A DNA stretch of 48,707 nt from Ramlibacter sp. (GTDB lineage Bacteria > Pseudomonadota > Gammaproteobacteria > Burkholderiales > Burkholderiaceae_C), in the NCBI GenBank assembly GCA_030831585.1, contig JAURKV010000087.1, positions 1 through 48,707 on the forward strand. The letters run 5' to 3'. The notes under the pieces are model-generated. The model did not search any database. It saw only the letters and a list, made by a program, of their open reading frames with translations, and was not told the DNA's origin. Numbering within the stretch: the stretch's first letter is position 1; each line of letters opens with the position of its first letter. The position numbers and the translations under genes were made by a program. Shown in pieces: positions 681 through 45,777 of the stretch.

Positions 681-1388
681 ATGGAAGCCCTTGCCTCTCC
701 AAATTTCTGGATCGCTGTCGGCCAGATCATCCTGATCGACATCTTGCTCGGTGGCGACAATGCCGTCGTCATTGCGCTCGCCTGCCGGGGCCTGCCGCCG
801 CAGCAGCGCCGCATGGGCATCATTTACGGAACCGCAGGCGCGATCGTCTTGCGGGTCGTCCTGATTGCCTTTGCCTTGGCCCTTCTGTCGGTTCCCTACC
901 TCAAGCTGGTCGGGGCCGTGTTGCTGGTGTGGATCGGCGCCAAACTGCTGATTCCCCAGGACGAGGAAGAGCACGGCAACATCCAGTCCTCCGACAAGCT
1001 CTGGGGCGCGGTCAAGACCGTGATCGTGGCCGATCTGGTGATGAGCGTCGACAACGTGCTGGCCATCGCTGGCGCAGCTGAGAGCGCCGGCCAGCACCAG
1101 CTGGGCCTGGTCATCTTCGGTCTTCTCGTGAGCATTCCGATCATCGTCGCCGGGTCCCAGATCGTCCTCAAACTGATGGACCGTTTCCCGCTGATCATCA
1201 CCCTGGGCGGCATGCTGCTCGGATGGATCGCTGGCCAAATGGCCGTGACCGACCCGGCCGTCAAGCCCTACTTCCCGGACGAGAAGGTCTGGGAGTACGG
1301 TGCAGCCCTGGCGGGTGCTCTCCTTGTGCTGGCGATCGGCAAGTACGCTGGGCGCAAGCCCGACGACCAGGATCAGGCCCCCGCCTGA
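681..1388 (+). CDS. TerC/YjbE family integral membrane protein
   Basis: Multi-TM protein with DILLGGDNAVVIALACRGLP and DLVMSVDNVLAIAGAAE motifs of the TerC family. Confidence 0.9.
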   Translation: MEALASPNFWIAVGQIILIDILLGGDNAVVIALACRGLPPQQRRMGIIYGTAGAIVLRVVLIAFALALLSVPYLKLVGAVLLVWIGAKLLIPQDEEEHGNIQSSDKLWGAVKTVIVADLVMSVDNVLAIAGAAESAGQHQLGLVIFGLLVSIPIIVAGSQIVLKLMDRFPLIITLGGMLLGWIAGQMAVTDPAVKPYFPDEKVWEYGAALAGALLVLAIGKYAGRKPDDQDQAPA

Positions 1389-1630: not shown

Positions 1631-4285
1631 TTGGCAAGTGCGGGAATCCGAACAGGGTGGCGTGTCCGGCAGGGTGCGGACGCTGCCCTGGCCTTGGCGG
1701 TCGGCGCTCTGGTGGTCGGGCTCCACCTGGCCACCGACGCCATCGCCGCCCTGGAGCGCCGCCTGTTCGATGCGGCCAGTACCTGGGCCGCGCCACCTCC
1801 CTCTGACCGTGTGGTGATCGTTGCTGTTGACGACACCAGCATCGCCCGCCTGGGCCGCTGGCCCTGGCCGCGCGACATCCACGCCCAGCTGATCGACCGT
1901 ATCGCCGAGGGCCGGCCCCGGGCGATTGTTCACACCACCCTGTTCCTTGAGCCCCAAGCCGACCGGGGCCTGGCCTACATCCGCCGCTTTCATGCGGTGG
2001 CGACTCAGGCCGGCTCCGCCGCGGCCCCCCTGGCGCGACTGGCGGCCGAGGCCGAGGCTGAGCTTGATGCCGACTCGCGGCTGGCGGCCAGTCTGGTTCG
2101 GGCTGGCAATGTCCTGCTGCCGGCGGTGTTCACACTCGGTGCGCCGGCCGGGCCCAGTGACACCCCACTTCCCGACTACCTGACCCCCATCGCCCGGCCG
2201 GCCGCCACCGGTGGGGGCGATGCGGCGCCCGCCGCCCTGCGCGGTCAATTTCCGCTTGCCCCCCTGGGCCGGGCCGCGGTCGGCGTGGGTCACCTGAACC
2301 TGCTGCCGGATGCCGACGGGGTCGCCCGCAGCGACCCCCTGCTTCTGCGTTTGGACGACCATGTCGTTCCCTCGCTTGCCCTGCTGGCGGCGGCTCGCGC
2401 CCTCCGCCTTGGCCCGGATGACTGGGGCACGGCCGGTGATGCTGCACTTCGTGTAGGAAGGATGCGAGTGCCCACTGACAGAAGATACTCCGTTTTATCT
2501 CAGTTCTATCCCCGTGCAGGAGGCCAGGCCCCGTTCCCGGTGGAGACGGTCCACGAGGTTCTGGCGGGTCAGGTGCCAGCGGCGCGCTTCGCCGATCGCA
2601 TCGTCGTCATCGGCACCACGGCCGCCGGGGTTGGCGCGTCGATCGCGGCGCCGGGCTACCCGGCCCTGTCGCCACCCGAGCGTTTGGCCCATGTGATCTC
2701 CAGCCTGTTGGGTGGCCATGGCTTTGTGCAGCCGCCCTGGGGGCCGCCCCTGACCTGGGGCCTGGCGCTGGCCGTGCTGGCCTATCTCGCCTGGGGCCTG
2801 CCGCGTCTCGGGGCTGGCGCGGGCGCGATCACCACCGCCTTCGGGCTGGCGGCCCTGGTCCTGGGTGAATGGCTGCTGCTGGCCGCCGCCGGGTACTGGT
2901 TGCCGCTGGTCTTTCCCGCCGTCTTCTTGTTGCTGGGTCATTTGGCGCTGACCACCCGCCGCTTCCTGCTGACCGAGGCCGGCAAGCGGCAAGCCGATGA
3001 CGAGTCGGCCGACGCGCACCGGCTGATGGGACTGGCACTGCTGGGCCAGGGCCAGCCGGACATGGCCTTCGACCGCTTCCGGCGGGTCCCGCTCGGCCCG
3101 CAGGTGATGGACAACCTGTATCAGCTGGCTCTGGATTTCGAACGCCGCCGGCAGTTCAACAAAGCGGAATCGGTGTACGCGCACATGTCGGCTTACGACC
3201 CGGGTTATGCCGACCTGGCCGAGCGACGCGAGCGGGCACGTCGTGCCGCGGACGTGGTGATGCTGGGCCGCAGCGCCGCCCATCCGGGCGGCACCCTGGT
3301 TTTGGACGACCCGACCCTGGAGCTGCCGACCCTGGGTCGCTACCGGCTGGACAAAGTCCTTGGCCAGGGCGCCATGGGCATGGTCTACCTGGGTCAAGAC
3401 CCGAAGATCGGGCGGTCCGTGGCCATCAAGACGCTGGCCCTGGGCGAAGCCTTCGAGGGAGAGGCGCTGACCGAGGCGCGCGCTCGCTTCTTCCGCGAGG
3501 CCGAGACGGCCGGCCGTCTCGCCCACCCGGGCATCGTCACGATCTATGACGCCGGCGAAGAGCAGGACCTGGCCTACATCGCCATGGAGTACGTCCCTGG
3601 GCACGACCTCTCAGCCCACACCCGGCCTGGGCAGCTCCTGCCAGCCCGCGAGGTGGTCGGTTTCGGCCTGCGGGTTGCGCAGGCGCTGGCGCACGCGCAT
3701 CGGCTCGGAGTGGTCCACCGAGACATCAAGCCGGCGAATCTGCTGTGGGTGCCGGAGCAGGACCTGCTGAAGGTGACCGACTTCGGCATCGCCCGCCTGG
3801 CCGACCAGGCCCGCACCCGCGCCGGTACCCTGCTGGGGACCCCTGGCTACATGGCGCCCGAGCAGCTCGCGGGGCAGACGGTCGACGGCCGCAGCGACCT
3901 CTATGCGCTGGGGGCGACGCTGTTTCAGCTCCTGATGGGGCGGCTCCCGTTTGAGGCTGAGACCCTCCCCGAGCTGATGTACCAGATCACCCACCAGGAA
4001 GCGCCCGACCTGCGTCTTTTGCGCCCCGACCTGCCCCCTGCCCTGGCTGAGATCCTGGCCCGGTTGCTGCGCAAATTGCCGGGCGAGCGCTACCCCGATG
4101 GCGCGGCCCTCGCGGCTGCGCTAGAGGCCTGCCTCCACCACTGGCCGGCGCCGGCCAACACCAACACCAACACCAGCGCCAGCGGTACGGATGCAGCCGC
4201 CGGTGCGGATGGCGGCGGCACTGCCAACGCCGACCCCTGGCCACCCGCCAGCGCCACCCCGCCCGATCCGGCGCCGGCCACCTGA
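1631..4285 (+). CDS. CHASE2-domain Hanks-type serine/threonine protein kinase with TM bundle and TPR-like segment
   Basis: N-terminal CHASE2-like region (VVIVAVDDTSIARLGRWPWPRD), three TM segments, kinase motifs GQGAMGMVY, VAIK, HRDIKPANLL, DFG, GTPGYMAPE; TTG start after gagggagtagggc. Confidence 0.93.
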   Translation: MASAGIRTGWRVRQGADAALALAVGALVVGLHLATDAIAALERRLFDAASTWAAPPPSDRVVIVAVDDTSIARLGRWPWPRDIHAQLIDRIAEGRPRAIVHTTLFLEPQADRGLAYIRRFHAVATQAGSAAAPLARLAAEAEAELDADSRLAASLVRAGNVLLPAVFTLGAPAGPSDTPLPDYLTPIARPAATGGGDAAPAALRGQFPLAPLGRAAVGVGHLNLLPDADGVARSDPLLLRLDDHVVPSLALLAAARALRLGPDDWGTAGDAALRVGRMRVPTDRRYSVLSQFYPRAGGQAPFPVETVHEVLAGQVPAARFADRIVVIGTTAAGVGASIAAPGYPALSPPERLAHVISSLLGGHGFVQPPWGPPLTWGLALAVLAYLAWGLPRLGAGAGAITTAFGLAALVLGEWLLLAAAGYWLPLVFPAVFLLLGHLALTTRRFLLTEAGKRQADDESADAHRLMGLALLGQGQPDMAFDRFRRVPLGPQVMDNLYQLALDFERRRQFNKAESVYAHMSAYDPGYADLAERRERARRAADVVMLGRSAAHPGGTLVLDDPTLELPTLGRYRLDKVLGQGAMGMVYLGQDPKIGRSVAIKTLALGEAFEGEALTEARARFFREAETAGRLAHPGIVTIYDAGEEQDLAYIAMEYVPGHDLSAHTRPGQLLPAREVVGFGLRVAQALAHAHRLGVVHRDIKPANLLWVPEQDLLKVTDFGIARLADQARTRAGTLLGTPGYMAPEQLAGQTVDGRSDLYALGATLFQLLMGRLPFEAETLPELMYQITHQEAPDLRLLRPDLPPALAEILARLLRKLPGERYPDGAALAAALEACLHHWPAPANTNTNTSASGTDAAAGADGGGTANADPWPPASATPPDPAPAT
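4157..4174 (+). repeat. In-frame hexanucleotide repeat (AACACC)x3 encoding NTNTNT in the kinase C-terminal tail
   Basis: aacaccaacaccaacacc read directly; followed by agcgccagcgg. Confidence 0.9.
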
Positions 4286-4341
4286 TGGCAAGCGCAGCCA
4301 CCGTCACGACCAGACCCACACAGCCCCCCGAGACTTCATCC

Positions 4342-5124
4342 ATGCATTACGCCTTCAGCAGCCGCACCGACACCGGGAAGGCGCGAGCGAACAACGAGGA
4401 TGCGCTGCTGATCGACGAGGCGCATGCGCTGGCGATCCTGGCCGATGGCATGGGGGGCTACAACGCTGGGGAGGTGGCCGCCGGCATGGCGGTCGCCAGC
4501 GTTGGCACCTCGCTGGGTCGCTGGCTGGCCAGCGCAGTCCCCGAGACGCCAGCCTCCGCCATTCGGCAGGCGATGGCCGACAGCGTGTCCGAGGCCAACC
4601 GCGCCATCCTCGCCGTTGCCCAGGCCCGCCCTGCGTACCAAGGCATGGGCACGACCCTGGTGCTGGCGGTGTTTCGCGATGACCGCCTCTTCCTCGGCCA
4701 CATCGGTGACTCCCGCGCCTACCGCTGGCGCGGGCAGCAACTCGAGCAACTCACGCGCGACCACTCCTTGCTGCAGGCGCAGCTCGACGCCGGTCTTTTG
4801 ACGCCGGCCGAAGCGGCGGCATCCACCCAGCGCAACTTCATCACCCGTGCCTTGGGCATCGAGCCCCGTGTGGAGCTTGAGCTCCATGAGCACCGTGTCG
4901 TCGCCGGCGACTGTTTCCTCCTCTGTTCGGACGGCCTCACCGACATGCTGGCCGACACGCAAATCGCCACCGCCCTCGCGCGCCATCCCGGGCTGGCGCG
5001 GCGCGGGACCGACTTGGTGGCCGCCGCCAACGCAGCGGGCGGGCGGGACAACATCACCGTGCTGCTGGCCGAGGCCCTCGGGGTCGTCCGGTCCGGCGCA
5101 CAGCAGACCCATGCAGCAAAGTGA
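4342..5124 (+). CDS. PP2C-family protein serine/threonine phosphatase (Stp/PppA-like)
   Basis: SRTDTGKARANNEDALLID, ADGMGGYNAGEVA, GMGTTLV, GHIGDSRAYRWR, LLCSDGLTDML, GGRDNITVLL: canonical PP2C motifs; ORF open from 4285. Confidence 0.94.
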   Translation: MHYAFSSRTDTGKARANNEDALLIDEAHALAILADGMGGYNAGEVAAGMAVASVGTSLGRWLASAVPETPASAIRQAMADSVSEANRAILAVAQARPAYQGMGTTLVLAVFRDDRLFLGHIGDSRAYRWRGQQLEQLTRDHSLLQAQLDAGLLTPAEAAASTQRNFITRALGIEPRVELELHEHRVVAGDCFLLCSDGLTDMLADTQIATALARHPGLARRGTDLVAAANAAGGRDNITVLLAEALGVVRSGAQQTHAAK

Positions 5125-5135
5125 GAACCCCAACC

Positions 5136-5972
5136 ATGCCCAGACTCATCATCACCCTCGACGGTCTGACGCTCCGCGATGTCCAGCTCAATCGCGAGCG
5201 AACCACCATCGGACGCCGACCGCACAACGACCTGGTCATCGACAACCTGGCGGTCAGCGGCGACCACGCCGCCATCCTGCGCGGACCAGCGGGCAGCTTC
5301 CTCGAGGATCTGGGCAGTACCAACGGCACCTTCCTCAACGGCCGCGCGGTCCAGCGGGCGCCGTTGCAGCACCAGGACAGCATCGACATCGGCAGGTACC
5401 GCCTGCGCTACATCGACGAGGTCCCGACCGCCGACTTCGAGCGGACCATGCTCGTGCGGCCCGGGAGCAGCCCTTCGCTATCGTCTTCGCCATCGCCTTC
5501 GCTTGCCCATGGCGCTACGTCAGGCAGCACCTCAGGTAGCACCCCAGGGCTCACCCTCGGCCCCTCCCCTGGCGCCGATCCAACCGCCCCTCGCGATGTG
5601 ACGGCTGGCAGCTTCCCCCGAGCGCCAGTTGCCACACCTCGGCGTGGTGCTTCCCCTCCGCCCCTCGCCGCGTCCGCAGCCCCGCCCGCCCCCGCTGCCG
5701 CTGCCGAGGCGCCGCCGGCCCGGGTCAAGGTCGTGTCGGGCGGCGCCGTCGGCCGTGAGCTGCAACTGGTCAAAGTGGTCACCACCATCGGCCGGCCAGG
5801 CGGTGCGATCGCGGCGATCACCCGGCGCGGCGGCAGCTACACCCTGGCCCATGTCGAGGGCACCCCGGCAACCCGCCTCAACGGCATCGAAATCCAGCGC
5901 CAACCCGTCTCGCTCTCCAGCGGCGATCAGCTCGACCTCTCGGGCGTGGTGATGGAATTCCTGCTGGATTGA
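5136..5972 (+). CDS. FHA domain protein: canonical N-terminal FHA, P/A/S-rich linker, degenerate second FHA-like domain
   Basis: TTIGRRPHNDLVIDN...VSGDHA...LEDLGSTNGTFLNGRAV; C-terminal TTIGRPGGAIAAITRRGGSYTL...TRLNG...LSSGDQLDLSG. Confidence 0.9.
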   Translation: MPRLIITLDGLTLRDVQLNRERTTIGRRPHNDLVIDNLAVSGDHAAILRGPAGSFLEDLGSTNGTFLNGRAVQRAPLQHQDSIDIGRYRLRYIDEVPTADFERTMLVRPGSSPSLSSSPSPSLAHGATSGSTSGSTPGLTLGPSPGADPTAPRDVTAGSFPRAPVATPRRGASPPPLAASAAPPAPAAAAEAPPARVKVVSGGAVGRELQLVKVVTTIGRPGGAIAAITRRGGSYTLAHVEGTPATRLNGIEIQRQPVSLSSGDQLDLSGVVMEFLLD

Positions 5973-8293
5973 AAAGGCTTCCTTTGAAAGGGCTGCCAAG
6001 GCTCCCCACGGGGCGTGACGACAGCAGGCCAGGCCGCTCCACCGCGGCCTGGGCCGCCCGGGCGCGCCGGCTTGCGCTGCTCCTGCCGGTGCTGCTGGCG
6101 CTGGCCCACCTGGGCGGCTGGCTGCCGATGCCCGTGCTGCACCAGATCGACGATTTCTTCTACGACCTTCGGCTGCGCATCGCCCGCGCGGACTCGCTCG
6201 ACCCGCGCATTGTCATCGTCGACATCGACGAAAAAAGCCTGTCCGAGCAGGGGCGCTGGCCCTGGGGTCGCGACCGTCTGGCGCGTCTGGTGGACGAACT
6301 CTTTTCACAGCAACAGGTCGCCCTGGTGGGGTTCGACGTGGTGTTCGCCGAGCCAGACACCAGCTCCGGTCTGGCGCGTCTTCAGCAACTGGCCGCGGGC
6401 GAGCTGGCCGACCAACCGGCCTTCCTGCGGCGCTTGCAGACCCTGGCGCCCGAGTTGGACTTCGACAGCCGCTTTGCCCGCGCCATCGCCAACCGGCCAG
6501 TCGTCCTGGGCTACTACTTCAACCTGGACCCGCAGGGCCAGAGCAGCGGCCAGCTGCCCCCGCCTGTGATGGGCGCCGACACCCTGCAAGGCCGGCGCCA
6601 GCGCTTCACCGCCTGGCGCGGCTATGGCGCCAGCCTGCCCTTGCTGGCCCAGGCGGCGCCGCAGGCGGGCTTTTTCAACCCACTGATCGACGACGACGGC
6701 AAGGTGCGCGCGGTGCCGCTGCTGGCCGAGTACCAGGGCCAGGTCTATGAGTCGCTGACTCTGTCGATGTTCCGCGAGCTCCAGGGACGCCCGGCCGTCG
6801 AGCCGGTGTTCGCTCAGGGACTGACCGTGCCTGGGGGCAAGGCCCCATTGCAGGCATTGCGGCTACGGCCTGCTTCGGGAGCCCCGATGGAGCTGCCGGT
6901 AGGAGACGGCGCGGTGGCCCTGGTTCCTTACCGCGGTTTGCCCGGCCCCCAGGGCGGGTCCTTCCGCTACCTGTCGGCCACCGATTTGATCGAGGGTCGG
7001 CTGGCCCGCGGCCATCTCCAGGGTCGCATCGTCCTGGTGGGCTCTTCCGCGCCCGGGCTCCAAGACCTGCGGCCGACCCCGGTGAGCGAGGCCTTCCCCG
7101 GCGTGGAGATTCACGCCCACTTGCTCTCCGCAATGCTGGACGGCCAGTTGCCAGTCCGCCCTGACTACTCGGTCGGCTACGAGGCCGCCCTGGTGCTGCT
7201 GATGGGCGGCGGGCTTGCCCTGGCCCTGCCGCTGCTGCCGGCCCTGCCTGGCCTGCTCGCGGTGACCGGGGCGCTTGTGCTGCCGGTGCTGTCCAACCTG
7301 GCGCTTTACCAGTGGGTGGGACTGGCCCTGCCGCTGGCCGCCACCCTGGCCACCATGCTGGCTGTCCTGCTGCTGCATCTGGGCGGACTCTGGGTCTTCG
7401 AGACCCGCGCCAGGCGCGCACTGGTGGGCCTGTTCGGGTCCTATGTGCCCCCGGAGTTGGTGGAGGAGATGGTGCGCGACCCCGATCGCTACTCGATGCG
7501 GGCCGACAGCCGGGAGCTCACCGTGATGTTCTGCGACATGCACGGCTTTACCCGTCTGGCCGAGCGCTTGCCGCCGGAGCAGTTGCAAGCCCTGCTCCAA
7601 GGCGTGTTCGACCGCCTTGGCCTGGTGGTGCGTGAGCACCGGGGCACCATCGACAAGTTCATGGGTGACTGCCTGATGGCCTTCTGGGGCGCCCCGCTGC
7701 CGGCGGCCGACCATGCCGCGCTCGCGGTTCGCGCGGCGCTGGGCATCGCCGAGGAGGTGGGTCGCATCAACGCTGACCATCAGGCGCGCGGCTTGCCGGC
7801 CGTGGGCTTCGGGGTTGGTCTGAGCACCGGCCGGATGTGTGTGGGCGACATGGGCTCGCGCCTGCGGCGGGCCTACACCGTGATCGGCGACGCGGTGAAT
7901 CTGGGTGCCCGGCTGCAGTCGCTCACCACGGTTTATGGGGTCGACATCGTCGCCAGTGACGCCACCCGCCAACAGGCCGGCGGTACCGACTGGCAGGCAC
8001 TGGACACGGTGCGCCTGAGTGGTCGGCAAGATGCGGTCACCCTGTGGTGCCCGCTGCCACCCGGCGCGGCCGCCGCCAGCAGCGCGCTGGCCCAGGAGCT
8101 GCGCGGGTGGGAGGCGTTCTTGGTGGCGTGGCGGCGCCAGGACTGGGCCACAGCCGCGCCCCTGCTGCAGACCCTGACGCGCCAGGGCAGCTGCCCCCGC
8201 CTCTACGCCCTTTACGAGCGCCGTCTGGCGCTACGCCGGCACCAGCCGCCGGACCCGGCCTGGGATGGCATCGCTGATCTGGGTGTGGGGTAA
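5969..8293 (+). CDS. CHASE2-domain class III adenylate/guanylate cyclase
   Basis: CHASE2 head (RIVIVDIDEKSLSEQGRWPWGRDRLARL), TM segments, cyclase domain VMFCDMHGFTRLAE, GTIDKFMGDCLMAFWGAP, YTVIGDAVNLGARLQ; TTG start overlaps FHA stop. Confidence 0.93.
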   Translation: MKRLPLKGLPRLPTGRDDSRPGRSTAAWAARARRLALLLPVLLALAHLGGWLPMPVLHQIDDFFYDLRLRIARADSLDPRIVIVDIDEKSLSEQGRWPWGRDRLARLVDELFSQQQVALVGFDVVFAEPDTSSGLARLQQLAAGELADQPAFLRRLQTLAPELDFDSRFARAIANRPVVLGYYFNLDPQGQSSGQLPPPVMGADTLQGRRQRFTAWRGYGASLPLLAQAAPQAGFFNPLIDDDGKVRAVPLLAEYQGQVYESLTLSMFRELQGRPAVEPVFAQGLTVPGGKAPLQALRLRPASGAPMELPVGDGAVALVPYRGLPGPQGGSFRYLSATDLIEGRLARGHLQGRIVLVGSSAPGLQDLRPTPVSEAFPGVEIHAHLLSAMLDGQLPVRPDYSVGYEAALVLLMGGGLALALPLLPALPGLLAVTGALVLPVLSNLALYQWVGLALPLAATLATMLAVLLLHLGGLWVFETRARRALVGLFGSYVPPELVEEMVRDPDRYSMRADSRELTVMFCDMHGFTRLAERLPPEQLQALLQGVFDRLGLVVREHRGTIDKFMGDCLMAFWGAPLPAADHAALAVRAALGIAEEVGRINADHQARGLPAVGFGVGLSTGRMCVGDMGSRLRRAYTVIGDAVNLGARLQSLTTVYGVDIVASDATRQQAGGTDWQALDTVRLSGRQDAVTLWCPLPPGAAAASSALAQELRGWEAFLVAWRRQDWATAAPLLQTLTRQGSCPRLYALYERRLALRRHQPPDPAWDGIADLGVG

Positions 8294-8513: not shown

Positions 8514-8993
8514 ATGAAACGCCAAATCCAACGTGGTTTTACCCTGATCGAGCTGATGATCGTTGTCGCCATCATCGGCATCCTGGCCGCCGTCGCCCTG
8601 CCGGCTTATCAGGACTACACCGCCCGGGCCAAAATGTCTGAGGTGGTACTGGCCGCCTCCAGTTGCCGCACAGCCGTTTCCGAGGTGTACCAGTCTTCTT
8701 CCACGGCGCCAACCGACTGGGGCTGCACGACCTCAACGGCCAATACAAGCAAGTACGTGGGTGGGGTCGCAGTCGACACCGATGGGGTGATCACCGTGAA
8801 GGTAGCGACCAACAGCATCAACTCCGAAACGAGCGAAAAGCAGATCCAGCTCGTGCCCTACCACACCGCCTCGGCCCCGAAGGCCGTCGCCACTGCGGGG
8901 CACCTCGGCAGTGCTGTGTTCAAGTGGACCTGCGGTCCCACCAGCTCGAGCGGCGTGCCGATCAAGTACCTGCCGGCGACCTGCCGCGATTAA
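8514..8993 (+). CDS. Type IV pilin (PilA/PilE-like major or minor pilin)
   Basis: [43 protein letters not shown]: short leader, G^F prepilin peptidase site, E5; C-terminal Cys pair [18 protein letters not shown]. Confidence 0.95.
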
Positions 8994-9039
8994 CCCTACG
9001 GCGGCCCGTCCCCCCGGGCCGTCCTGCGATGATCGGGGG

Positions 9040-10734
9040 GTGAGCACCGCGCCCCATTCCCTCTCCGCTTCCCCCGATCCCTTGTTCCCCCGTGAACAGC
9101 GACTGGCCAGCTTCATGCTGGCCTTCTTGCTTTTCCTGCCCTGGTTCCTCAACCCTTCTTGGGGCCCCAGCCCCATCGTGCTGCAGACGTTGCTCTCCGC
9201 GGCGGCGGCGCTGGTCTGGTTTGCCCTGCCGCCTGCACAGCGCGGGCACGCCGCGGCGGTGGTTGCCGGGTCGTGGCTGGCGGGCGGTTGCGTGAACGCG
9301 GCCATTGCGCTGGCCCAGTACTTCGGTCAGGTGCAGCAGTCCACCGTCTGGATCAGCGCCTCTGCCTACGGCGAGGCCTACGGGAACCTGCGTCAGCGCA
9401 ACCAACTGGCCACCCTGCTGGCCCTGGGCCTGGCGTCCGCCTTCTACTTTGCAGCTCGTGCCCGAGCCTGGGGCCGGGCGGGCCTGGTTCTGGCGGTGGT
9501 GCTGATGTCAGCAGCCTGTGCGCTCACCTCCTCGCGCACCGGGCTGCTGCAGTGGCTGCTGCTCAGCGGTCTTTTACTTGCTGCGCCCTGGCTGGGCGGG
9601 CGCAGCGGCTGGCGCGGGTGGGGCCTGCTGGCGCTGGGGAGCTATCTGCTGTCGCTGTTGGCGCTGCCGGCACTGGCCCAGTGGTGGACGGGTGAGTCCC
9701 CCACCACCCTGATGGGACGCATGGCCACCGACCTGGGCTGCGTCAGCCGCAAGGTGCTGTGGCGCAATGCCCTCACCCTCATCGCTGAGCGCCCCTGGGC
9801 CGGCTGGGGCCTGGGCGAGATGGACTACGCCCACCACGTCACGCTCTACCCTGGCGAGCGCTTTTGCCTGATTCTCGACAACGCGCACAACCTCTTTTTG
9901 CAGGTCGCCGTTGAGCTGGGCCTGCCCGCCGCTTTGTTGCTGGGAGCCCTGATCGCCTGGGGCCTCTGGCGCGGCCGGCCGTGGGCCGAGCGCTCGCCCG
10001 GCCGCTTGCTGGCGTGGGCTGCGCTGGCGGTGATGATGCTGCACAGTCAGGTCGAGTACCCCTTGTGGTACGGGCCTTTTGAATTGGCGGCGCTTCTGGC
10101 GATTTCGCTGCTGTTGATCCTGCCGACCGTCACCGGATCTGCCACAGCCACAGCCACAGGCAATGCCAGCGCCAGCGCCGACTTGTCGGCGGCGCCGGTG
10201 CCCACTGGGCGGCCGGGCGCCCTGCGCCTGGGCTTGTCGGCGCTGGCACTTGCCGCGCTCGCCTATGTGATGTGGGACTACCACCGTGTTTCCCAGCTCT
10301 TTTTGTCTGAAGCCGCGCGCTCGCCGGCCTATCGCGGCGACACGCTGGCCAAGGTCCGTGGCAGTTGGCTGTTCGCATCGCAGGTGGAGTTCGCAGAATT
10401 CACCACCTCGCCACTGACCTTCGCCAATGCGGCTGCCATGGCTGACCTAGGCGAGTCGGTGATGCACTATTCGCCCGAGCCGCAGGTGGTGCAGAAGCTG
10501 GTGGAGGCGCTGGCTCTCGCCAGACGCGATGAACGCGCCAATTGGCACATCACCCGCTTCCAGGTGGCGTTCCCTGAGGAGTACGCGGCCTGGAAGCGCA
10601 CGCTGGACAGCGCCCCGAGTGCAGATTTGAGCGCAGGCTCGGAGACAACAGCCGCTTCCGCGCCGGCCGCAGGGCTCACGACAGACCGAACTTCAGGCTC
10701 CGCCCCAGCGCCCGCTGCAGGGCCTGCTCAGTAA
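9040..10734 (+). CDS. Polytopic O-antigen ligase / PglL-TfpO-like O-oligosaccharyltransferase
   Basis: Many TM helices, Wzy_C-type motif NAHNLFLQVAVELGLPAALLL, position directly downstream of a pilin gene; GTG start at 9040 in frame with listed ORF. Confidence 0.8.
   Translation: MSTAPHSLSASPDPLFPREQRLASFMLAFLLFLPWFLNPSWGPSPIVLQTLLSAAAALVWFALPPAQRGHAAAVVAGSWLAGGCVNAAIALAQYFGQVQQSTVWISASAYGEAYGNLRQRNQLATLLALGLASAFYFAARARAWGRAGLVLAVVLMSAACALTSSRTGLLQWLLLSGLLLAAPWLGGRSGWRGWGLLALGSYLLSLLALPALAQWWTGESPTTLMGRMATDLGCVSRKVLWRNALTLIAERPWAGWGLGEMDYAHHVTLYPGERFCLILDNAHNLFLQVAVELGLPAALLLGALIAWGLWRGRPWAERSPGRLLAWAALAVMMLHSQVEYPLWYGPFELAALLAISLLLILPTVTGSATATATGNASASADLSAAPVPTGRPGALRLGLSALALAALAYVMWDYHRVSQLFLSEAARSPAYRGDTLAKVRGSWLFASQVEFAEFTTSPLTFANAAAMADLGESVMHYSPEPQVVQKLVEALALARRDERANWHITRFQVAFPEEYAAWKRTLDSAPSADLSAGSETTAASAPAAGLTTDRTSGSAPAPAAGPAQ
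10141..10158 (+). repeat. In-frame hexanucleotide repeat (GCCACA)x3 encoding ATATAT in the ligase
   Basis: gccacagccacagccaca followed by gccagcgccagcgcc; protein SATATATGNASASAD. Confidence 0.9.
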
Positions 10735-37365: not shown

Positions 37366-38763
37366 ATGGACACCATGGGTAGTCTCAAGCTTGCCAACAT
37401 GAATCACACCCCTACCTTGTCCAAGTTGGCTGACTTAGCGCACGACTATCAATTGGCAAACGCTCCGCCAATCGTGACCGCTCGGATGCGCAACTTGCTA
37501 CTCGATACCCTAGGCTGCAGCATTGCTGGACGTCACCACGAGGCCGTGCAGAAGGCCTGTGTCGCCGCGCAAGCCTTGGGCATGGACTCGCAAGTCGTGG
37601 GTTTGGGCAGCTTGCGCCGCCTGAGCCTTATGGGTGCCATGCTTGAGAGCGGTGCAGCCATCCGCGCGCTCGACTTCAATGACTTTTACTGGGGCCCTGG
37701 CATCGGCGGGCATCCCAGTGATTTGTTCGGAATCGCCTTGCCCCTGGCTCAATCTCAATCCTCGACATTGGGTGAGCTGTTGGAAGCCACGCTGGTGGGC
37801 TATGGCTTGTATCTGCGACTTCTTGATGTGATGGCCCCCCACGGGGCTTTCGATCACACCACCGCCATGACGTTGGGCTCAGCAGCCATCAGCGCACGTC
37901 TATTCAAAGCCGATCGCAACACGATGCTGCACACGCTCGCCATGGCCCTGGTGCGTGGCCCGGCTATGTGCGCCATGCGGCAAGGGGCGATCAGCGAGGC
38001 AAAAGCCACAGCGCCCGCAGTGGCGGGGATCAGCGGCTATCTGGCGGCCCAACTGGCGATGGCAGGTTTGATTGGGCCGGTTGCTGCGGTCATGGGCAAG
38101 AATGGACTGCAGGCCTTTGTCGCCGAAGGTGCGGACCTGAGTGATTTGATCCGCCAACCTTTGCTGGACCATCATCTCGACGCGGTCAGTATCAAACGCT
38201 ATCCCTGTATTGGCACTGCTCAAGCCACCGTATCCGCTGCACAGGCGCTTCATGCACCGCTGCAAGAGGCCGCGTCACCCATCGAGTCGGTGCAGGTCCA
38301 TTTAGGCGACAGCCCACTCATCCGGCACCAATGTTCGTCGGCCTATTTGCATCCAAACGATAGAGAAACGGCTGATCACAGCTTTTTCTCGCTGATTTCC
38401 ATGACTTTGCTCGAGGGCACACTGACCCCCGATCAGTTCGATCGACGCCGATATCTCGATGCGGATGTGAAAGCCGTGTCGGAACAGTTGCATTTCCACT
38501 TTGACCTGGCGGGCGCAGAGCAGGGTTTGTTTTCAGCCCGAATCGAAGTGCGTTTGGAAAATGGAAAAAGTTTTCAAAGCCAAGCCCTTCATCCCCCGGG
38601 GCATCCCTTGCGCCCGCTGAGCGCGGAAGATTTGTCCCGCAAATTTTTTGACTGCGCCCTGCCCCACATGAGCCAAGAGAGGGCGCAAGGCTTGCTAGAG
38701 AACTGCCTGCAGGCCCCTTTGCATACACCGATATCAACCGTTTTGAGACCCCTGCAGAATTGA
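37366..38763 (+). CDS. MmgE/PrpD family protein (paralogue 1)
   Basis: LLLDTLGCSIAGRHHEAV, IRALDFNDFYWGPGIGGHPSDLFGIALPLA, SIKRYPCIGTAQ: MmgE/PrpD motifs; start may be 37399. Confidence 0.9.
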   Translation: MDTMGSLKLANMNHTPTLSKLADLAHDYQLANAPPIVTARMRNLLLDTLGCSIAGRHHEAVQKACVAAQALGMDSQVVGLGSLRRLSLMGAMLESGAAIRALDFNDFYWGPGIGGHPSDLFGIALPLAQSQSSTLGELLEATLVGYGLYLRLLDVMAPHGAFDHTTAMTLGSAAISARLFKADRNTMLHTLAMALVRGPAMCAMRQGAISEAKATAPAVAGISGYLAAQLAMAGLIGPVAAVMGKNGLQAFVAEGADLSDLIRQPLLDHHLDAVSIKRYPCIGTAQATVSAAQALHAPLQEAASPIESVQVHLGDSPLIRHQCSSAYLHPNDRETADHSFFSLISMTLLEGTLTPDQFDRRRYLDADVKAVSEQLHFHFDLAGAEQGLFSARIEVRLENGKSFQSQALHPPGHPLRPLSAEDLSRKFFDCALPHMSQERAQGLLENCLQAPLHTPISTVLRPLQN

Positions 38764-38787
38764 AATTCTCGAAAGAAGAAAGTCACC

Positions 38788-39549
38788 ATGAGCACCCATG
38801 ATCTAACCGGGCGCGTCGCGCTGGTCACCGGCAGCGCAAGACGTATTGGGCGATCCATCGCGCTTGCCCTTGCACAACGTGGCGCCCATGTGCTGGTCCA
38901 CTCACAAACTGATCGCACCTCGGCTGAAGAGACGGCCCGTCAAATCCGTGCACTGGGTGTTGAGGCACAAGTTTTCTTGGCCGACATCACCCAACCGGAA
39001 CAAGTGCAAGCCCTGGTGCAACACGCCGTTGACACATGGGGACGCCTCGACATTCTTGTCAACAGCGCCGCCATCCGACGGCCCGTCAAATTCGAAGACC
39101 TCACCTTCGCAGAGTGGCGACTCATCATGTCGATCATTTTGGATGGCACTTTTTTGTGCTGTCATGCCGCCGCTCCCCATCTGCGGCGCAGCGGTCACGG
39201 GCGGATCGTCAACATTGGCGGCATCACCAGCCAAATCGGAGCGCACGGGCGCGCTCATGTGGTGGCCGCTAAAGCCGGCGTGGTAGGCCTCACGAAAGCC
39301 TTGGCGCTGGACTTGGGTGATTCACAAGTCACGGTCAATTGCGTGGCGCCGGGGATGGTTGAGTCTCCCGAAGATGATGCGGTGTCGACACAGTTTCGGC
39401 GGCAGCACACCCCCTTGGAGAAAATTCCTCTCGGGCGGGCTGGAACTCCGGACGATGTGGGTCGTGCTGTCGCCGTCCTGTGCTCGGACGAATTAGCCTA
39501 TGTCACAGGGCAAACCTTGCACCTCAATGGAGGTGTCTTCCTGTGGTGA
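38788..39549 (+). CDS. SDR-family protein lacking canonical Ser/Tyr catalytic residues
   Basis: GRVALVTGSARRIGRSIALALAQRGAHVLVH, ILVNSAAI, VNIGGITSQIGAHGRAHVVAAKAGVVGLTKALA, VTGQTLHLNGGVFLW. Confidence 0.9.
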   Translation: MSTHDLTGRVALVTGSARRIGRSIALALAQRGAHVLVHSQTDRTSAEETARQIRALGVEAQVFLADITQPEQVQALVQHAVDTWGRLDILVNSAAIRRPVKFEDLTFAEWRLIMSIILDGTFLCCHAAAPHLRRSGHGRIVNIGGITSQIGAHGRAHVVAAKAGVVGLTKALALDLGDSQVTVNCVAPGMVESPEDDAVSTQFRRQHTPLEKIPLGRAGTPDDVGRAVAVLCSDELAYVTGQTLHLNGGVFLW

Positions 39550-40907
39550 CAGCCACCCTGGCGGAGCACATGGCCAGCAGTGCTCAGCGCGAGCTACCGG
39601 CTGAAGTGGTCGAAAAGACGGCTCTACATATCCTTGACACCGTCGCTGCGATGGTCTCGGGCACCCGACTCGAAGGCGGCGTGCAAGCGCTCAAATGGGT
39701 CGCTCAGCAAGGTGGCAGGCCCGATGCCCTGGTTGTGGGGTCCGAGTGCCGCAGCTCAGCCGCGGACGCTGCCCTCGCCAACGGGATGTTGGCACATGCG
39801 GATGAAACTGATGACTCGCATGCCCTCTCACTCACCCATCCAGGCTGCGCCATCGTTCCCGCAGCACTTGCCGTCGGGGATTGGCGCGATGTCTCGGGTC
39901 AGGCCCTGCTACGCGCCGTCACAGTCGGATATGACGTCGGCCCCCGCATCTCCATGGCGTTAGGAGCCGCCTCGTTTTTTGACGACCATCACAGCTCGCA
40001 CAGTGTGGGGGGCTTATTTGGAGCCACTGCAGCGGTTTCTTCGCTGATGGGTTTTTCAGCCCGTCAATGTGAATACATGCTGTCGTATGCGGTCCAGCAA
40101 GCCTCGGGCAACGCCTGTTGGAGACGCGATCCTGATCATGTAGAAAAGGCCTACGACTTCGGTGGGATGCCGGCCCACCATGCCGTGCTGGCGGGCACCA
40201 TGGTTGCATCCGGCATGACGGGTTCTCGGCAGCCAATTGAGGGTACCCCGGGCCTGCTGGCGGCGTATCCCAAACATGCCCGCCCGGCCTTGGCGACAGA
40301 AGCACTGGGTACGCGATACGAGGTGATGAGAACCGCGATCAAAAAATGGTGTGTCGGTTCGCCAATTCAGTCAGCCCTGGATTCCTTGCTGTACTTGATG
40401 CAAAACGAAGGCCTGCGCCATGAGCAGGTCGATCGCATCGTGGTCTCCTTGCCAGTGCAATCTGCGCCCGTGGTGGACCGGCGCGAGATGCCGGCAGTCA
40501 ATCTTCAATTTCAACTTTCTGTGTTGCTGCTCGATGGACATCTGAGCTTTGATTCCGGGCATAACCAGGCGCGCATGCATGAGGCCGTGGTTTTGGATCT
40601 GTGCGATCGCATCCAGATTGATCCACGTCCGGAACAAGCCTTTATTGACAACTCGCGCCAAGCCATCGTGACCGTGCATTGTCGTGATGGAAGCATAAAG
40701 AGCCATCACACCTTGCATGTTCGCGGCACCCCGGCAAACCCCATGACGCTGTCCGAAATTCAGGTCAAAGCGCAAGACTTGATGGCGCCCGTACTGGGTA
40801 CCGAGCGCAGTCAACAACTCATTAGCCAACTGATACAGTTGAATGAGTTACCCCATATCAGTGTCTTGCGTCCCTTGTTGAAGCCGGCATTTTCCCTTTC
40901 ACGTTGA
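39546..40907 (+). CDS. MmgE/PrpD family protein (paralogue 2)
   Basis: HILDTVAAMVSGTRLEGG, LAHADETDDSHALSLTHPGCAIVPAAL, AIKKWCVGSPIQSALDSL; GTG start overlaps SDR stop (GTGA). Confidence 0.88.
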   Translation: MTATLAEHMASSAQRELPAEVVEKTALHILDTVAAMVSGTRLEGGVQALKWVAQQGGRPDALVVGSECRSSAADAALANGMLAHADETDDSHALSLTHPGCAIVPAALAVGDWRDVSGQALLRAVTVGYDVGPRISMALGAASFFDDHHSSHSVGGLFGATAAVSSLMGFSARQCEYMLSYAVQQASGNACWRRDPDHVEKAYDFGGMPAHHAVLAGTMVASGMTGSRQPIEGTPGLLAAYPKHARPALATEALGTRYEVMRTAIKKWCVGSPIQSALDSLLYLMQNEGLRHEQVDRIVVSLPVQSAPVVDRREMPAVNLQFQLSVLLLDGHLSFDSGHNQARMHEAVVLDLCDRIQIDPRPEQAFIDNSRQAIVTVHCRDGSIKSHHTLHVRGTPANPMTLSEIQVKAQDLMAPVLGTERSQQLISQLIQLNELPHISVLRPLLKPAFSLSR

Positions 40908-40917
40908 AAGTAAGACC

Positions 40918-41898
40918 ATGAAATCAGAACTGAATCGTCGCCAAGCGCTCTCTCTGACTTTGGGTGGACTCAGCCTGCCCTCCTGGGCACAAAGCACACG
41001 CTATCCGAATAAACCCATCCGACTGATTGTTCCGACCCCTCCCGGCGGCGGTGCCGACGCGTTTGCTCGGGTCGTCGGGCAACGTATGTCGGAGATTTTG
41101 GGTCAGCCGGTGGTGATTGAAAATCGTCCCGGGGTCGCAGGCAACCTGGCGGCTGAACAGGTCATGCGCATGCCGCCCGATGGCTACAGCCTGTTCGTTG
41201 GGGCCATTGCGACGCTGGCCATCTCGCCCGTGCTTTACGAGTCCCTCGCTTTCAATCCGATCAAAGACTTCACGCACATCACTCAGGGTGTTGTGCTGAG
41301 TAATCTCTTGGTGGCGCATCCCAGCGTGCCCGCAAACTCTGTGAAGGAGTTGATTGCCTTGGCCAAAGCCAAGCCAGGCACGATCAACTTCTCTTCATCT
41401 GGCAATGCCACAGCGGGGCACCTGGCGGGGGAGTTGTTCGGAGCGATGACTGAAACCAATATTGTTCATGTGCCGTACAAGGGCGGTGGTCCGGCATTGG
41501 CCGATTTGGTGGCCGGCCATGTCCAAATAAGTTTTGCCAGCCCACCCTCCGCGCTTCCCCTCGTCAAAGCGGGCAAGCTCAAAGTTTTGGGTGTGACCAC
41601 CGATAAACGTCAACTCAGCATGCCTGATGTGCCCACCATCGACGAGGCAGGTGTCCCCGGATATTTCGCCAACAATTGGTACTGCTTTGTCGGTCCAGCC
41701 GGAATGCCAAAAGACATCGTCGCCTTGCTCAATCGAGAGTTTCGTAACGCGATGCTCGACCCTAAGGTGATGAGCACGCTGTCCGGCCAAGGCATGGTGC
41801 CCGAACCCAGTAGTCCTGAGCAGTTGACTAAATTCATCAGCCAAGAGATTGAGAAGTGGGGAAAGATCGTTCGGGCCAGGAATATCAAGCCAGACTGA
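40918..41898 (+). CDS. Bug/TctC-family tripartite tricarboxylate transporter substrate-binding protein
   Basis: YPNKPIRLIVPTPPGGGADAFARVVGQRMSEILGQPVVIENRPGVAGNLAAEQV; signal peptide with RRQAL. Confidence 0.94.
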   Translation: MKSELNRRQALSLTLGGLSLPSWAQSTRYPNKPIRLIVPTPPGGGADAFARVVGQRMSEILGQPVVIENRPGVAGNLAAEQVMRMPPDGYSLFVGAIATLAISPVLYESLAFNPIKDFTHITQGVVLSNLLVAHPSVPANSVKELIALAKAKPGTINFSSSGNATAGHLAGELFGAMTETNIVHVPYKGGGPALADLVAGHVQISFASPPSALPLVKAGKLKVLGVTTDKRQLSMPDVPTIDEAGVPGYFANNWYCFVGPAGMPKDIVALLNREFRNAMLDPKVMSTLSGQGMVPEPSSPEQLTKFISQEIEKWGKIVRARNIKPD

Positions 41899-42183: not shown

Positions 42184-45100
42184 ATGAACGCCCCTCTGCC
42201 TGAGCACATCCGCCAGGCCCTTGAGACCGTTTCCCTCGACGACAAGTACGCGCTTGACCACGGCCGCGCCTTCATGAGCGGGGTGCAGGCCCTGGTGAAA
42301 CTGCCCATGCTGCAGCGCCAGCGCGACGCGCTGGTGGGCAAGCGCACCGCGGGCTTCATCAGCGGCTACCGCGGCTCGCCGCTGGGCGGTTATGACCAGG
42401 CCCTGTGGAAGGCGCGCCAATATCTCAAGGCGCAGAACATCGTCTTTCAGCCCGGGGTGAACGAAGAGCTAGCCGCCACCGCGCTGTGGGGCACGCAGCA
42501 GCTGGGCTTTGCGCCCCGGGCGCAGCAAAAGTTTGATGGCGTCTTCGGCATCTGGTACGGCAAGGGCCCGGGCGTGGACCGCTGCTCCGACGTCTTCAAG
42601 CACGCCAACATGGCCGGCACCACGCCCTGGGGTGGGGTGATCGCGGTGGCCGGCGATGACCATGTGGCCAAGTCCTCCACTGCCGCGCACCAAAGCGACC
42701 ACATCTTCAAGGCCTGCGGCTTTCCGGTCTTCTTTCCGTCTTCGGTGCAGGAGATTCTTGACCTGGGCCTGCACGCCTTCGCCATGAGCCGCTACGCCGG
42801 CGTGTGGACCGGCATGAAGACCATTCAGGAGATCGTCGAGTCCAGCACCGCCGCCACCATCGACCCGCAGCGGGTGAAGATCGTCCTGCCCGAAGACTTC
42901 GCCATGCCGGCTGGCGGCGTGCATATCCGCTGGCCCGATACGCCGCTGGAGCAGGAGGCGCGCCTTTTTGACTACAAGTGGTACGCGGCCCTGGCCTATG
43001 TGCGCGCCAACCGCCTCAATCACAACGTGATCGAGGGGCCGAACGACTGCTTCGGCCTCATCGCCAGCGGCAAGGCCTACAACGATACCCGCCAGGCCCT
43101 GATGGACCTGGGCCTGCCAGACGCCGAGTGCCAGCGCCTGGGCATCCGCCTGCACAAGGTGTCGGTGGTCTGGCCGCTGGAGGCACAGACCACTCGTGAG
43201 TTCGCCACCGGTCTGCGCGAGATTCTGGTCGTGGAGGAAAAGCGCCAGGTCATCGAGTACCAGCTGAAAGAAGAGCTCTACAACTGGCGTGACGATGTGC
43301 GGCCCCACGTGCTGGGCAAGTTCGACGAGGTCGAAGGCGACTACTCCGGCGGCGAATGGTCCATGCCCAACCCGACGGCCAACACCCTGCTGCGGGCCAA
43401 TGCCGACCTGTCCCCGGCACTGATCGCCCGGGCCATTGCCCGGCGGCTCAAGAAGCTGGGCGTGGACGCGGATACCGCCGCACGGCTTGACGCCCGTATG
43501 GCCGTGCTCGACGCGGCCGAGAAGTCGCTGCGGGTGATGGAGGTACAGGGCGACCGCACGCCCTGGTTCTGCTCGGGCTGCCCGCACAACACCTCGACCC
43601 GGGTCCCCGAGGGCTCGCGCGCCATGGCCGGCATCGGCTGCCATTACATGGCCCTGTGGATGGACCGCGCCACTCTGGGCTTTACCCAGATGGGGGGTGA
43701 GGGCGTGCCCTGGGTCGGCCAGGCCCCTTTCACCGACGAGAAGCATGTGTTCGCCAACATCGGCGACGGCACCTATTTCCACAGCGGCCTGCTGGCGATC
43801 CGCCAGTCCATCGCTGCCGGGGTGAACATCACCTACAAGCTCCTCTACAACGACGCGGTGGCCATGACGGGCGGCCAGCCCGTGGGCGAGCGGCCCGAGG
43901 GCCACAGCGTGGTGCAAATTGCCACCGCCCTGGTGGCCGAGGGCGCGAGCCGGCTGGTGGTCGTCACCGACGAGCCGGACAAGTACGACGGCGCGCACGA
44001 CCTCCCGGGGCTCGAGGCCGTTGGCCCGCACGCACTGCGCCGCCTGCCCGAAGGGGTCGACGTTTTCCACCGCGACGACCTCGATCGCGTTCAGCGCGAG
44101 CTGCGCGAGATCCCAGGCGTCACGGTCATCGTCTACGACCAGACCTGCGCCACCGAAAAGCGCCGTCGCCGCAAGCGCGGCACGATGGTCGACCCTGCGG
44201 TGCGCGTCGTGATCAACGAGGCGGTGTGTGAGGGCTGCGGCGATTGCGGCGAGCAATCCAACTGCCTGTCGGTCGAGCCGCTGGAAACCCCCCTGGGCCG
44301 CAAGCGCACCATCAACCAGAGCAGCTGCAACAAGGACATGAGCTGCCTCAAGGGCTTTTGCCCCAGCTTCGTCACGGTGCAGGGTGGGGCGCTCAAGAAA
44401 AAACCCAAGTCGCAGGCGCCTGACCCCGCCAGCTTCGGCCCCCTGCCCGAGCCCAACCTGCCCACCCTGGAGGGCAGCGCCTATGGCATTGTGGTCGCCG
44501 GCGTCGGCGGCACCGGCGTGATCACCATCGGCCAGTTGTTGGGAATGGCCGCGCACCTGGAGGGCAAGGGCGTGGTCACCCAGGACGCGGCTGGCCTGGC
44601 GCAAAAGGGCGGCGCGACCTGGAGCCATGTGCTGATCGGCCAGCAGCCGGAGCACATCCTCACCACCCGGGTGGGGCTGGCAGCGGCCGATCTCATCATC
44701 GGCTGCGACCCCATCGTCACCGCCGGTAAGGAAACGGCTCAGCGCATCCGGCACGGTCGCACCCGGGTCGCGCTCAACGCCCACGGCACGCCCACCGCCG
44801 CCTTCGTGCACCAGCCCGATTGGGCCGACCCGGCCTCGGCTTGCACCGGCGCGCTGACCGGACTGGTGGGTGCGGATCGGCTGGGCCTGCTGCAGGCCGA
44901 GCAGATCGCCACCCGCTTGCTGGGTGACAGCCTGTTCACCAACCCGGTCATGCTGGGCTACGCCTGGCAGCGCGGCTGGATTCCGCTTGGCGAGGCGGCG
45001 CTGCTGCGCGCCATGGAGCTCAACGAGGTGGCGGTGGCGGCCAACAAGGCGGCCTTCCTCTGGGGGCGCCTGGCGGCTCACGACCCGGCGGCGGTGGACT

Positions 45101-45777
45101 CGCTCCTCACCCCCGCGCAGGTCGTGCAGTTCCAGCCGAGGCAGACGCTGGACGGCCTGCTGGCCCACCGCGCCACCCATCTGGCGGCCTACCAAAACGA
45201 CGCCTATGCCCGCCACTACCGCGACTTCGTCGAGCGGGTCCGCTCGGCCGAGGCGCCCCTGGGCAAGACCCAGCTGACCGAGGCGGTCGCCCGCGGCCTG
45301 TTCAAGCTCATGGCCTACAAGGACGAATACGAGGTGGCGCGCCTGCACACTGACCGTGCCTTTCTGGGCCGGATCGCAGGCCAGTTCGAAGGCGACTTCA
45401 AGCTGCACTACCACCTGGCGCCGCCCCTGCTGGCCAAGACGAATGACAAGGGCGAGTTGATCAAGCGACCCTTCGGCCCCTGGATGGGGGTCGCCTTCCA
45501 GGTGCTCGCCCGCCTGAAGTTCCTGCGCGGTACCGACTTCGACCCCTTCGGCCGCAGCGCTGAGCGCCGCGGCGAGCGGGCCTTGATCGAGGCCTACCGG
45601 GCCAGCCTGGAAGAAGTGATTGCTGCGCTCGACGCCGGCAACCATGCCCGGGCGCTCGAAATCGCCCGCCTGCCCGAGCAGATTCGCGGCTTTGGCCATG
45701 TGAAGGAGCGCCACCTTGCGAAGGTGCGGCCCCAATGGGACGCGCTCATGGCCCGGTGGCGGGCCCAACGGATGTAG
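42184..45777 (+). CDS. Indolepyruvate ferredoxin oxidoreductase family protein (fused alpha/beta/gamma-type, 1197 aa)
   Basis: [51 protein letters not shown] (TPP region); [52 protein letters not shown] (Fe-S); C-terminal gamma domain [15 protein letters not shown]. Confidence 0.93.
   Translation: [1197 protein letters not shown]

Follow-up and report, generated by a model that had tools for sequence, protein, structure and literature searches.

The kinase, phosphatase, FHA and cyclase genes at 1631-8293 of the window (the whole stretch of 48,707 nucleotides analyzed here) appear to provide the signal input of an old operon of proteobacteria, one that is conserved across the whole order Burkholderiales and beyond. 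The individual parts are of known kinds, and what appears new is their combination. Phosphothreonine and cAMP signaling are usually studied separately in bacteria. This operon joins a phosphothreonine writer, eraser and reader with, in most relatives, a cAMP writer and eraser, beside a pilus-type motor. We put at about one in two the probability that two matched membrane sensors, heading a phospho-branch and a cAMP branch, jointly regulate a machine of the type IV pilus type. A search of the open-access literature, with subscription papers outside its scope, found no description of the operon.

The window comes from a MAG that resembles Ramlibacter, with 3.54 Mb in 295 contigs and a completeness of 81%. 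The first-pass annotation had reported four same-strand genes here, and all four ORFs are indeed found, head to tail on the forward strand, each product carrying Pfam domains above the gathering cut-offs. The features of the locus are as follows.

607-638: strong terminator-like hairpin with a stem of 13 pairs, separating sucD from terC
681..1388, +: membrane protein of the TerC/YjbE family (a neighbor conserved upstream of the operon; at most a candidate member of the system)
1631 (TTG)..4285, +: CHASE2-Hanks Ser/Thr kinase (CHASE2 at residues 26-388, kinase domain at 571-822)
3293..3295, +: Thr555 in the juxtamembrane linker (GG-T-L-V-L), predicted autophosphorylation and FHA docking site
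4285..5124, +: PP2C phosphatase of the Stp1/IreP type (Pfam PP2C_2; likely start ATG 4342)
5121..5972, +: FHA protein (Pfam FHA, 79.9 bits; likely start ATG 5136)
5202..5393, +: FHA domain 1 (FHA1; Pfam), predicted to bind phosphothreonine; nearest solved relatives GarA and OdhI
5436..5459, +: FERTMLVR motif immediately C-terminal to FHA1; its Thr109 (5445-5447) is predicted to be phosphorylated by the operon kinase
5721..5969, +: C-terminal FHA-like domain (conserved T-[IL]-G-[KR]-P-G ... N-G), which lacks a canonical Ser/His pocket
5969 (TTG)..8293, +: CHASE2-class III adenylyl cyclase, as predicted (CHASE2 at residues 48-412, cyclase domain at 515-693)
8514..8993, +: type IV pilin (Pfam Pilin and N_methyl), directly 3' of the cyclase
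8911..10734, +: O-oligosaccharyltransferase of the PglL/Wzy_C_2, pilin glycosylation type (Pfam Wzy_C_2, Wzy_C, PglL_A; ORF start uncertain)

The catalytic motifs of the kinase and the cyclase had been described as intact, and the residues concerned proved invariant or nearly so in relatives. The kinase scores 162.9 bits for CHASE2 and 165.7 bits for Pkinase; its kinase domain carries all the catalytic motifs of the Hanks type, and the VAIK, HRD, DFG and APE residues are invariant in 51 orthologues. The phosphatase passes the Stp1/IreP model (NCBIfam NF033484, 242.5 bits for a cut-off of 230) and its four metal-binding Asp are invariant in 57 relatives. In the cyclase, CHASE2 (192.1 bits) and Guanylate_cyc (64 bits) are both above cut-off, the two metal-binding Asp, the purine-site Lys/Thr and the transition-state Asn/Arg are all present, and D523, K563, D567, T637, N644 and R648 are conserved in 49 operon orthologues. 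Adenine specificity in class III cyclases is marked by the purine-site Lys/Thr pair; the K563/T637 signature thus fits an adenylyl cyclase, with cAMP as its predicted product.

The genes had also been said to follow each other with essentially no gaps. This is true of the ORFs, which overlap, but the true starts are probably ATG 4342 for the phosphatase and ATG 5136 for the FHA protein, since relatives begin at equivalent positions, and these starts leave gaps of 56 and 11 bp. The overlap of the cyclase TTG start with the FHA stop (ATTGA) was confirmed.

Conservation of the operon and its neighborhood

We searched for the cyclase in 200 genomes spread over Burkholderiales, found a match in 154 and fetched 100 regions for comparison of the loci. 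All four genes are present in 51 of the 101 strong-cyclase loci, from many families, and their order and strand are identical in all 51. Conserved co-occurrence across Burkholderiales, which the first-pass annotation had put forward as a check, is therefore supported, and the gene order is not due to chance. The cyclase stands alone in 39/101 loci, in some of them because the contig ends, and the state of the operon is strongly clustered on the cyclase tree. A class-wide survey, which searched the same genomes for the kinase, the cyclase and the FHA gene and took the comparison outside the order, gave 43 CHASE2 kinases with an FHA gene no more than 6 kb away, and the two genes share a strand in every case (43/43). 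A cyclase lies within 15 kb in 24 of these loci, one of which belongs to the window's own family; it is on the same strand in 12 and inverted in the other 12. That the linkage survives inversion of the cyclase argues for a shared function over co-transcription alone. Six genomes from outside the order (G602, G699, G517, G637, G545 and G654) have a same-strand gap of 2.5-4.3 kb between the FHA and cyclase genes, which implies the insertion of one or more unknown genes.

These data bear on the possibility that the genes simply adjoin through neighborhood inertia and do not work together. At one and the same chromosomal site, many Comamonadaceae loci are missing at least one member, as inertia would allow, but the linkage persists across many families, even through cyclase inversion, and the losses are correlated rather than random. 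We give this explanation hardly any weight.

The unit at 1631-8293 is real, but it is just the 5' part of what relatives conserve: the four genes stand as annotated, and a phosphodiesterase, a motor ATPase, an HD-GYP protein and a pilin, which usually follow in relatives, had been overlooked. We found this downstream tail by a search for recurrent neighbors, combined with Pfam, outside the window's family (f1, Comamonadaceae). On the same strand, 3' of the cyclase, comes a metallo-hydrolase that matches the cAMP phosphodiesterase class II family (PDEase_II), followed in 9/43 loci by a cNMP-binding-rhodanese protein, then by a GAF-MshEN-T2SSE ATPase of the PilB/GspE kind and by a GAF-HD protein with an HD-GYP signature (HHE..DG.GYP). 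Among the 43 loci with enough sequence, the phosphodiesterase is found in 38, the ATPase in 40 and the HD protein in 40; all three occur together in 35, in an order that is always identical. A pilin-like match lies downstream in 23/43 complete loci outside the window's family, and in relatives the pilin is often the gene that closes the operon. Examples of the tail are L049:13118-18938 and L058:13145-19138, together with about 40 other loci.

Comamonadaceae have lost this tail to different extents; what is left in the window is the pilin and the PglL-like ligase. No orthologue of the operon ATPase was found in the window's MAG (81% complete), and one is present in the same-genus genome G464. 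The genes of the neighborhood point to an output through type IV pilus-type machinery, likely to be surface appendages rather than a secretion weapon. A bolder reading, which we regard as rather doubtful, is that the ancestral operon was a single control unit in which three signaling currencies gated one dedicated GAF-MshEN pilus-type ATPase: phosphothreonine (kinase, PP2C and FHA protein), cAMP (cyclase, class-II phosphodiesterase and cNMP-binding protein) and c-di-GMP (HD-GYP and MshEN). The two CHASE2 proteins would then be obligate partners in sensing, and the window would have arisen from this operon by reduction, with the input half and the pilin retained. The MshEN domain, which passes its Pfam cut-off, is a candidate binder of c-di-GMP.

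The upstream side could be taken to suggest a different kind of output. In the window, sucD is followed by the hairpin at 607-638, the TerC/YjbE gene and then the kinase, and sucD-terC precedes the operon in nearly all Comamonadaceae loci and in several other families. Since GarA and OdhI are also the nearest solved FHA structures, the FHA protein could be a GarA/OdhI-like brake on central metabolism, in a locus that belongs with sucCD and not with pili. The strong hairpin between sucD and terC, however, argues against co-transcription of sucCD with the operon, most loci outside Comamonadaceae have no sucD nearby, and the genes downstream are pilus and second-messenger genes. The FHA protein also scores only 52.6 bits against the OdhI model (cut-off 200), outside OdhI membership. 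We consider a metabolic brake very improbable.

Thr109 and the predicted phosphothreonine branch

The FHA protein had been described as carrying two FHA domains. The first is an FHA domain by Pfam, and its pocket residues R32, S46, H49 and N68 are invariant in 113/113 relatives. The second has no Pfam detection and no Ser/His pocket, and from its sequence appears to be a conserved FHA-like repeat. A structure prediction of the protein from a three-sequence alignment reached a mean pLDDT of only 38, too low to be of use.

Immediately beyond FHA1 lies a linker of otherwise unalignable sequence, in which relatives carry the motif F-E-[KR]-T-M-[VI]-[LI]-R. Its Thr109 is present in 79 of 81 kinase-bearing loci and in 14 of 32 without the kinase (Fisher p = 2e-10, uncorrected for kinship). 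No such association exists with the cyclase (70/84 vs 23/29). The kinase itself has comparable sites. In 67 kinase linkers, T[VILM][VILM]L occurs 93 times (60 linkers carry at least one copy) against a shuffled mean of 0.8, and a Thr motif in the C-tail of some lineages was observed 25 times against 1.0 in shuffles; for the Thr motif of the FHA linker the counts are 79 and 2.7. As homologous sequences are non-independent, these shuffle tests reveal a conserved motif, not phosphorylation. The window's kinase keeps T555 (GGTLVLDD) and lacks the second common site, reading ADVVML where most relatives have SETVIL. In some Comamonadaceae (L172, L177 and L186) the kinase C-tail holds 2-4 copies of [DE]-x-T-[AVQI]-V, which resembles the FHA-linker motif.

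Read most simply, these motifs would be similar sites at which the kinase modifies both itself and the FHA protein, for recognition by FHA1. This reading yields a concrete substrate prediction, namely Thr109 and the Thr-x-x-Leu sites. The earlier proposal of a writer, eraser and reader set is supported, the reader carrying a Thr109 that depends on the presence of the kinase. The pocket of FHA1 is intact even in kinase-less loci, so it must have ligands besides the products of the operon kinase. Six loci with neither kinase nor cyclase (L157, L169, L176, L187, L189 and L190) nevertheless retain the Thr109 motif. A genome-wide kinase search of the loci without the operon kinase found other Hanks kinases in all genomes; several genomes that keep Thr109 gave no close relative of the operon kinase in this search.

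The host MAG also encodes a second, soluble kinase (L002:208-2193, contig C70). It is fused to a class III cyclase-homology domain that is degenerate, the purine-site Lys apparently being lost. This fusion is another pairing of kinase and cyclase within the host genome.

Loss patterns and the relation between the two branches

We examined 60 Comamonadaceae loci taken from the same chromosomal site. Coverage on the downstream side ended about 6 kb beyond the FHA gene, so a cyclase relocated elsewhere in the genome would be missed. The module occurs here in many partial forms, and many loci retain PP2C-FHA while both kinase and cyclase are absent from the site. Such persistence of PP2C-FHA without the cyclase indicates that the FHA protein must have another use and a different partner. 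Among kinase-bearing loci, a cyclase accompanies the CHASE2 kinase in 65/65 cases and a CHASE2-less kinase in 3/16. The functional pairing of kinase and cyclase proposed earlier gains support from these counts, and the joint keeping and loss of the two CHASE2 proteins suggests a common signal or a physical partnership. On the tree, about three independent contrasts favor the association of CHASE2 kinase and cyclase and none opposes it, which is not significant; the co-loss tests overall have 4-7 well-supported independent contrasts and agree in direction, but stay below significance because phylogenetically independent pairs are too few. In family f10 (L119, L120, L122 and L124), terC/sucD and FHA-cyclase have neither a kinase nor a PP2C gene between them. 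These loci keep an intact FHA pocket and adjacent FHA and cyclase genes but have lost the Thr109 motif. Loss of kinase, CHASE2 domain or cyclase from one and the same chromosomal site makes various species natural knock-outs in which cross-talk can be tested directly.

How far the branches act on each other can be read in several ways. The operon may hold two independent sensor branches that respond to related signals and serve the same machinery, neither regulating the other. This would agree with the lack of association between Thr109 and the cyclase, with the persistence of PP2C-FHA without the cyclase and of FHA-cyclase without the kinase, and with the cyclase alignment, in which no conserved kinase-specific Thr motif is seen. 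It fits less well with the loss of the kinase CHASE2 domain together with the cyclase, or with the adjacency of FHA and cyclase kept in family f10 despite the loss of kinase and PP2C. We see this as a serious possibility, if one we would not bet on.

At the other extreme, the phosphothreonine branch may switch the cyclase directly, through phosphorylation of the cyclase or binding of the FHA protein, as the first-pass annotation had proposed. The adjacency in family f10 and the translational overlap of FHA stop and cyclase start are what such control would lead one to expect, and there is a precedent in DgcB, an FHA-GGDEF fusion (PMC6733907). But the comparison of operon cyclases with stand-alone ones in the cyclase alignment revealed no conserved phosphosite specific to the former, in many species the FHA protein survives the loss of the cyclase, and Thr109 tracks the kinase, not the cyclase. 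A phospho-switched cAMP output is thus unsupported so far, and we think it unlikely.

For the reading that we favor, joint control of a pilus-type machine, we infer the phosphotransfer and binding steps, cAMP as the product and the pilus as the output from the catalytic residues, gene order, co-loss patterns and conserved motifs described above. The CHASE2 kinase would sense an envelope signal, autophosphorylate on the Thr-x-x-Leu sites of its linker and phosphorylate Thr109 of the FHA protein. FHA1 would read the phosphothreonines of the kinase linker and of Thr109, possibly folding back onto its own Thr109 as in GarA and OdhI, and the PP2C would reset the switch. In parallel with this phospho-branch, the CHASE2 cyclase would make cAMP, which in most relatives would be removed by the class-II phosphodiesterase and sometimes bound by the cyclic-nucleotide-binding protein. 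As a pair, the two branches would tune an assembly machine of the type IV pilus type, represented in relatives by the GAF-MshEN PilB/GspE-type ATPase and pilin, and in the window by the pilin and the PglL-type ligase. Several observations tell against this reading: the co-loss contrasts fall short of significance, PP2C-FHA persists in loci with no kinase or cyclase, kinase-less loci keep the FHA1 pocket, and the window has lost one of the two linker Thr sites as well as the phosphodiesterase, ATPase and HD genes.

Comparison with known systems

The combination resembles several known systems and is a member of none. Like the PpkA-PppA-Fha trio of T6SS clusters, it encodes together a membrane Hanks kinase, a PP2C and an FHA protein, the latter with a putatively kinase-dependent Thr. 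It differs by the addition of a cyclase and, in relatives, of a cAMP phosphodiesterase and a pilus-type ATPase. We rejected assignment to the T6SS trio on the type of the FHA protein, which is below the TagH cut-off (TIGR03354, 45.3 bits for 120.25), and on the absence of VipB: VipB/TssC had no match in the host MAG (81% complete), and no T6SS structural gene is among the window genes scanned. The earlier remark that no T6SS gene is visible was borne out, with no T6SS marker in the host MAG.

The actinobacterial GarA and OdhI are the closest solved structures to FHA1 by sequence, share its intact pThr pocket (113/113 relatives) and likewise have a conserved Thr beside the FHA domain. Their Thr lies in an N-terminal tail, whereas that of the operon protein is C-terminal to FHA1; the operon protein, known here from sequence alone, also has its second, FHA-like domain. 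DgcB of Bdellovibrio bacteriovorus, in which an FHA domain is fused to a GGDEF diguanylate cyclase (PMC6733907), similarly ties FHA phosphothreonine recognition to a nucleotide cyclase, but as a fusion, where the operon has separate FHA and class III cyclase products.

In Sinorhizobium meliloti, the available portion of one report describes CyaD1, CyaD2 and CyaK as CHASE2 adenylate/guanylate cyclases of class III that drive cAMP signaling and act with NsrA and Clr (PMC13001267). They share CHASE2 sensing with the operon cyclase; unlike it, they have no kinase-PP2C-FHA partner described in that portion of the report. The Sulfolobus archaellum network, as presented in the available portions of two papers (PMC5300886, PMC7472852), is alike in placing a type IV pilus-like structure under the control of Ser/Thr kinases and a phosphatase, and unlike in being archaeal, built from an unrelated gene set and without a cyclase.

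Two further observations concern the rest of the window. The stretch at 37366-41898 has a low G+C content (0.56-0.59 vs about 0.67-0.70 around it), was probably acquired horizontally, and holds two MmgE/PrpD genes, an SDR and a TctC-family receptor. At 42184-45777, the window encodes a protein of 1197 aa with POR, DUF6537 and TPP_enzyme_C domains, apparently a fusion that resembles indolepyruvate ferredoxin oxidoreductase.
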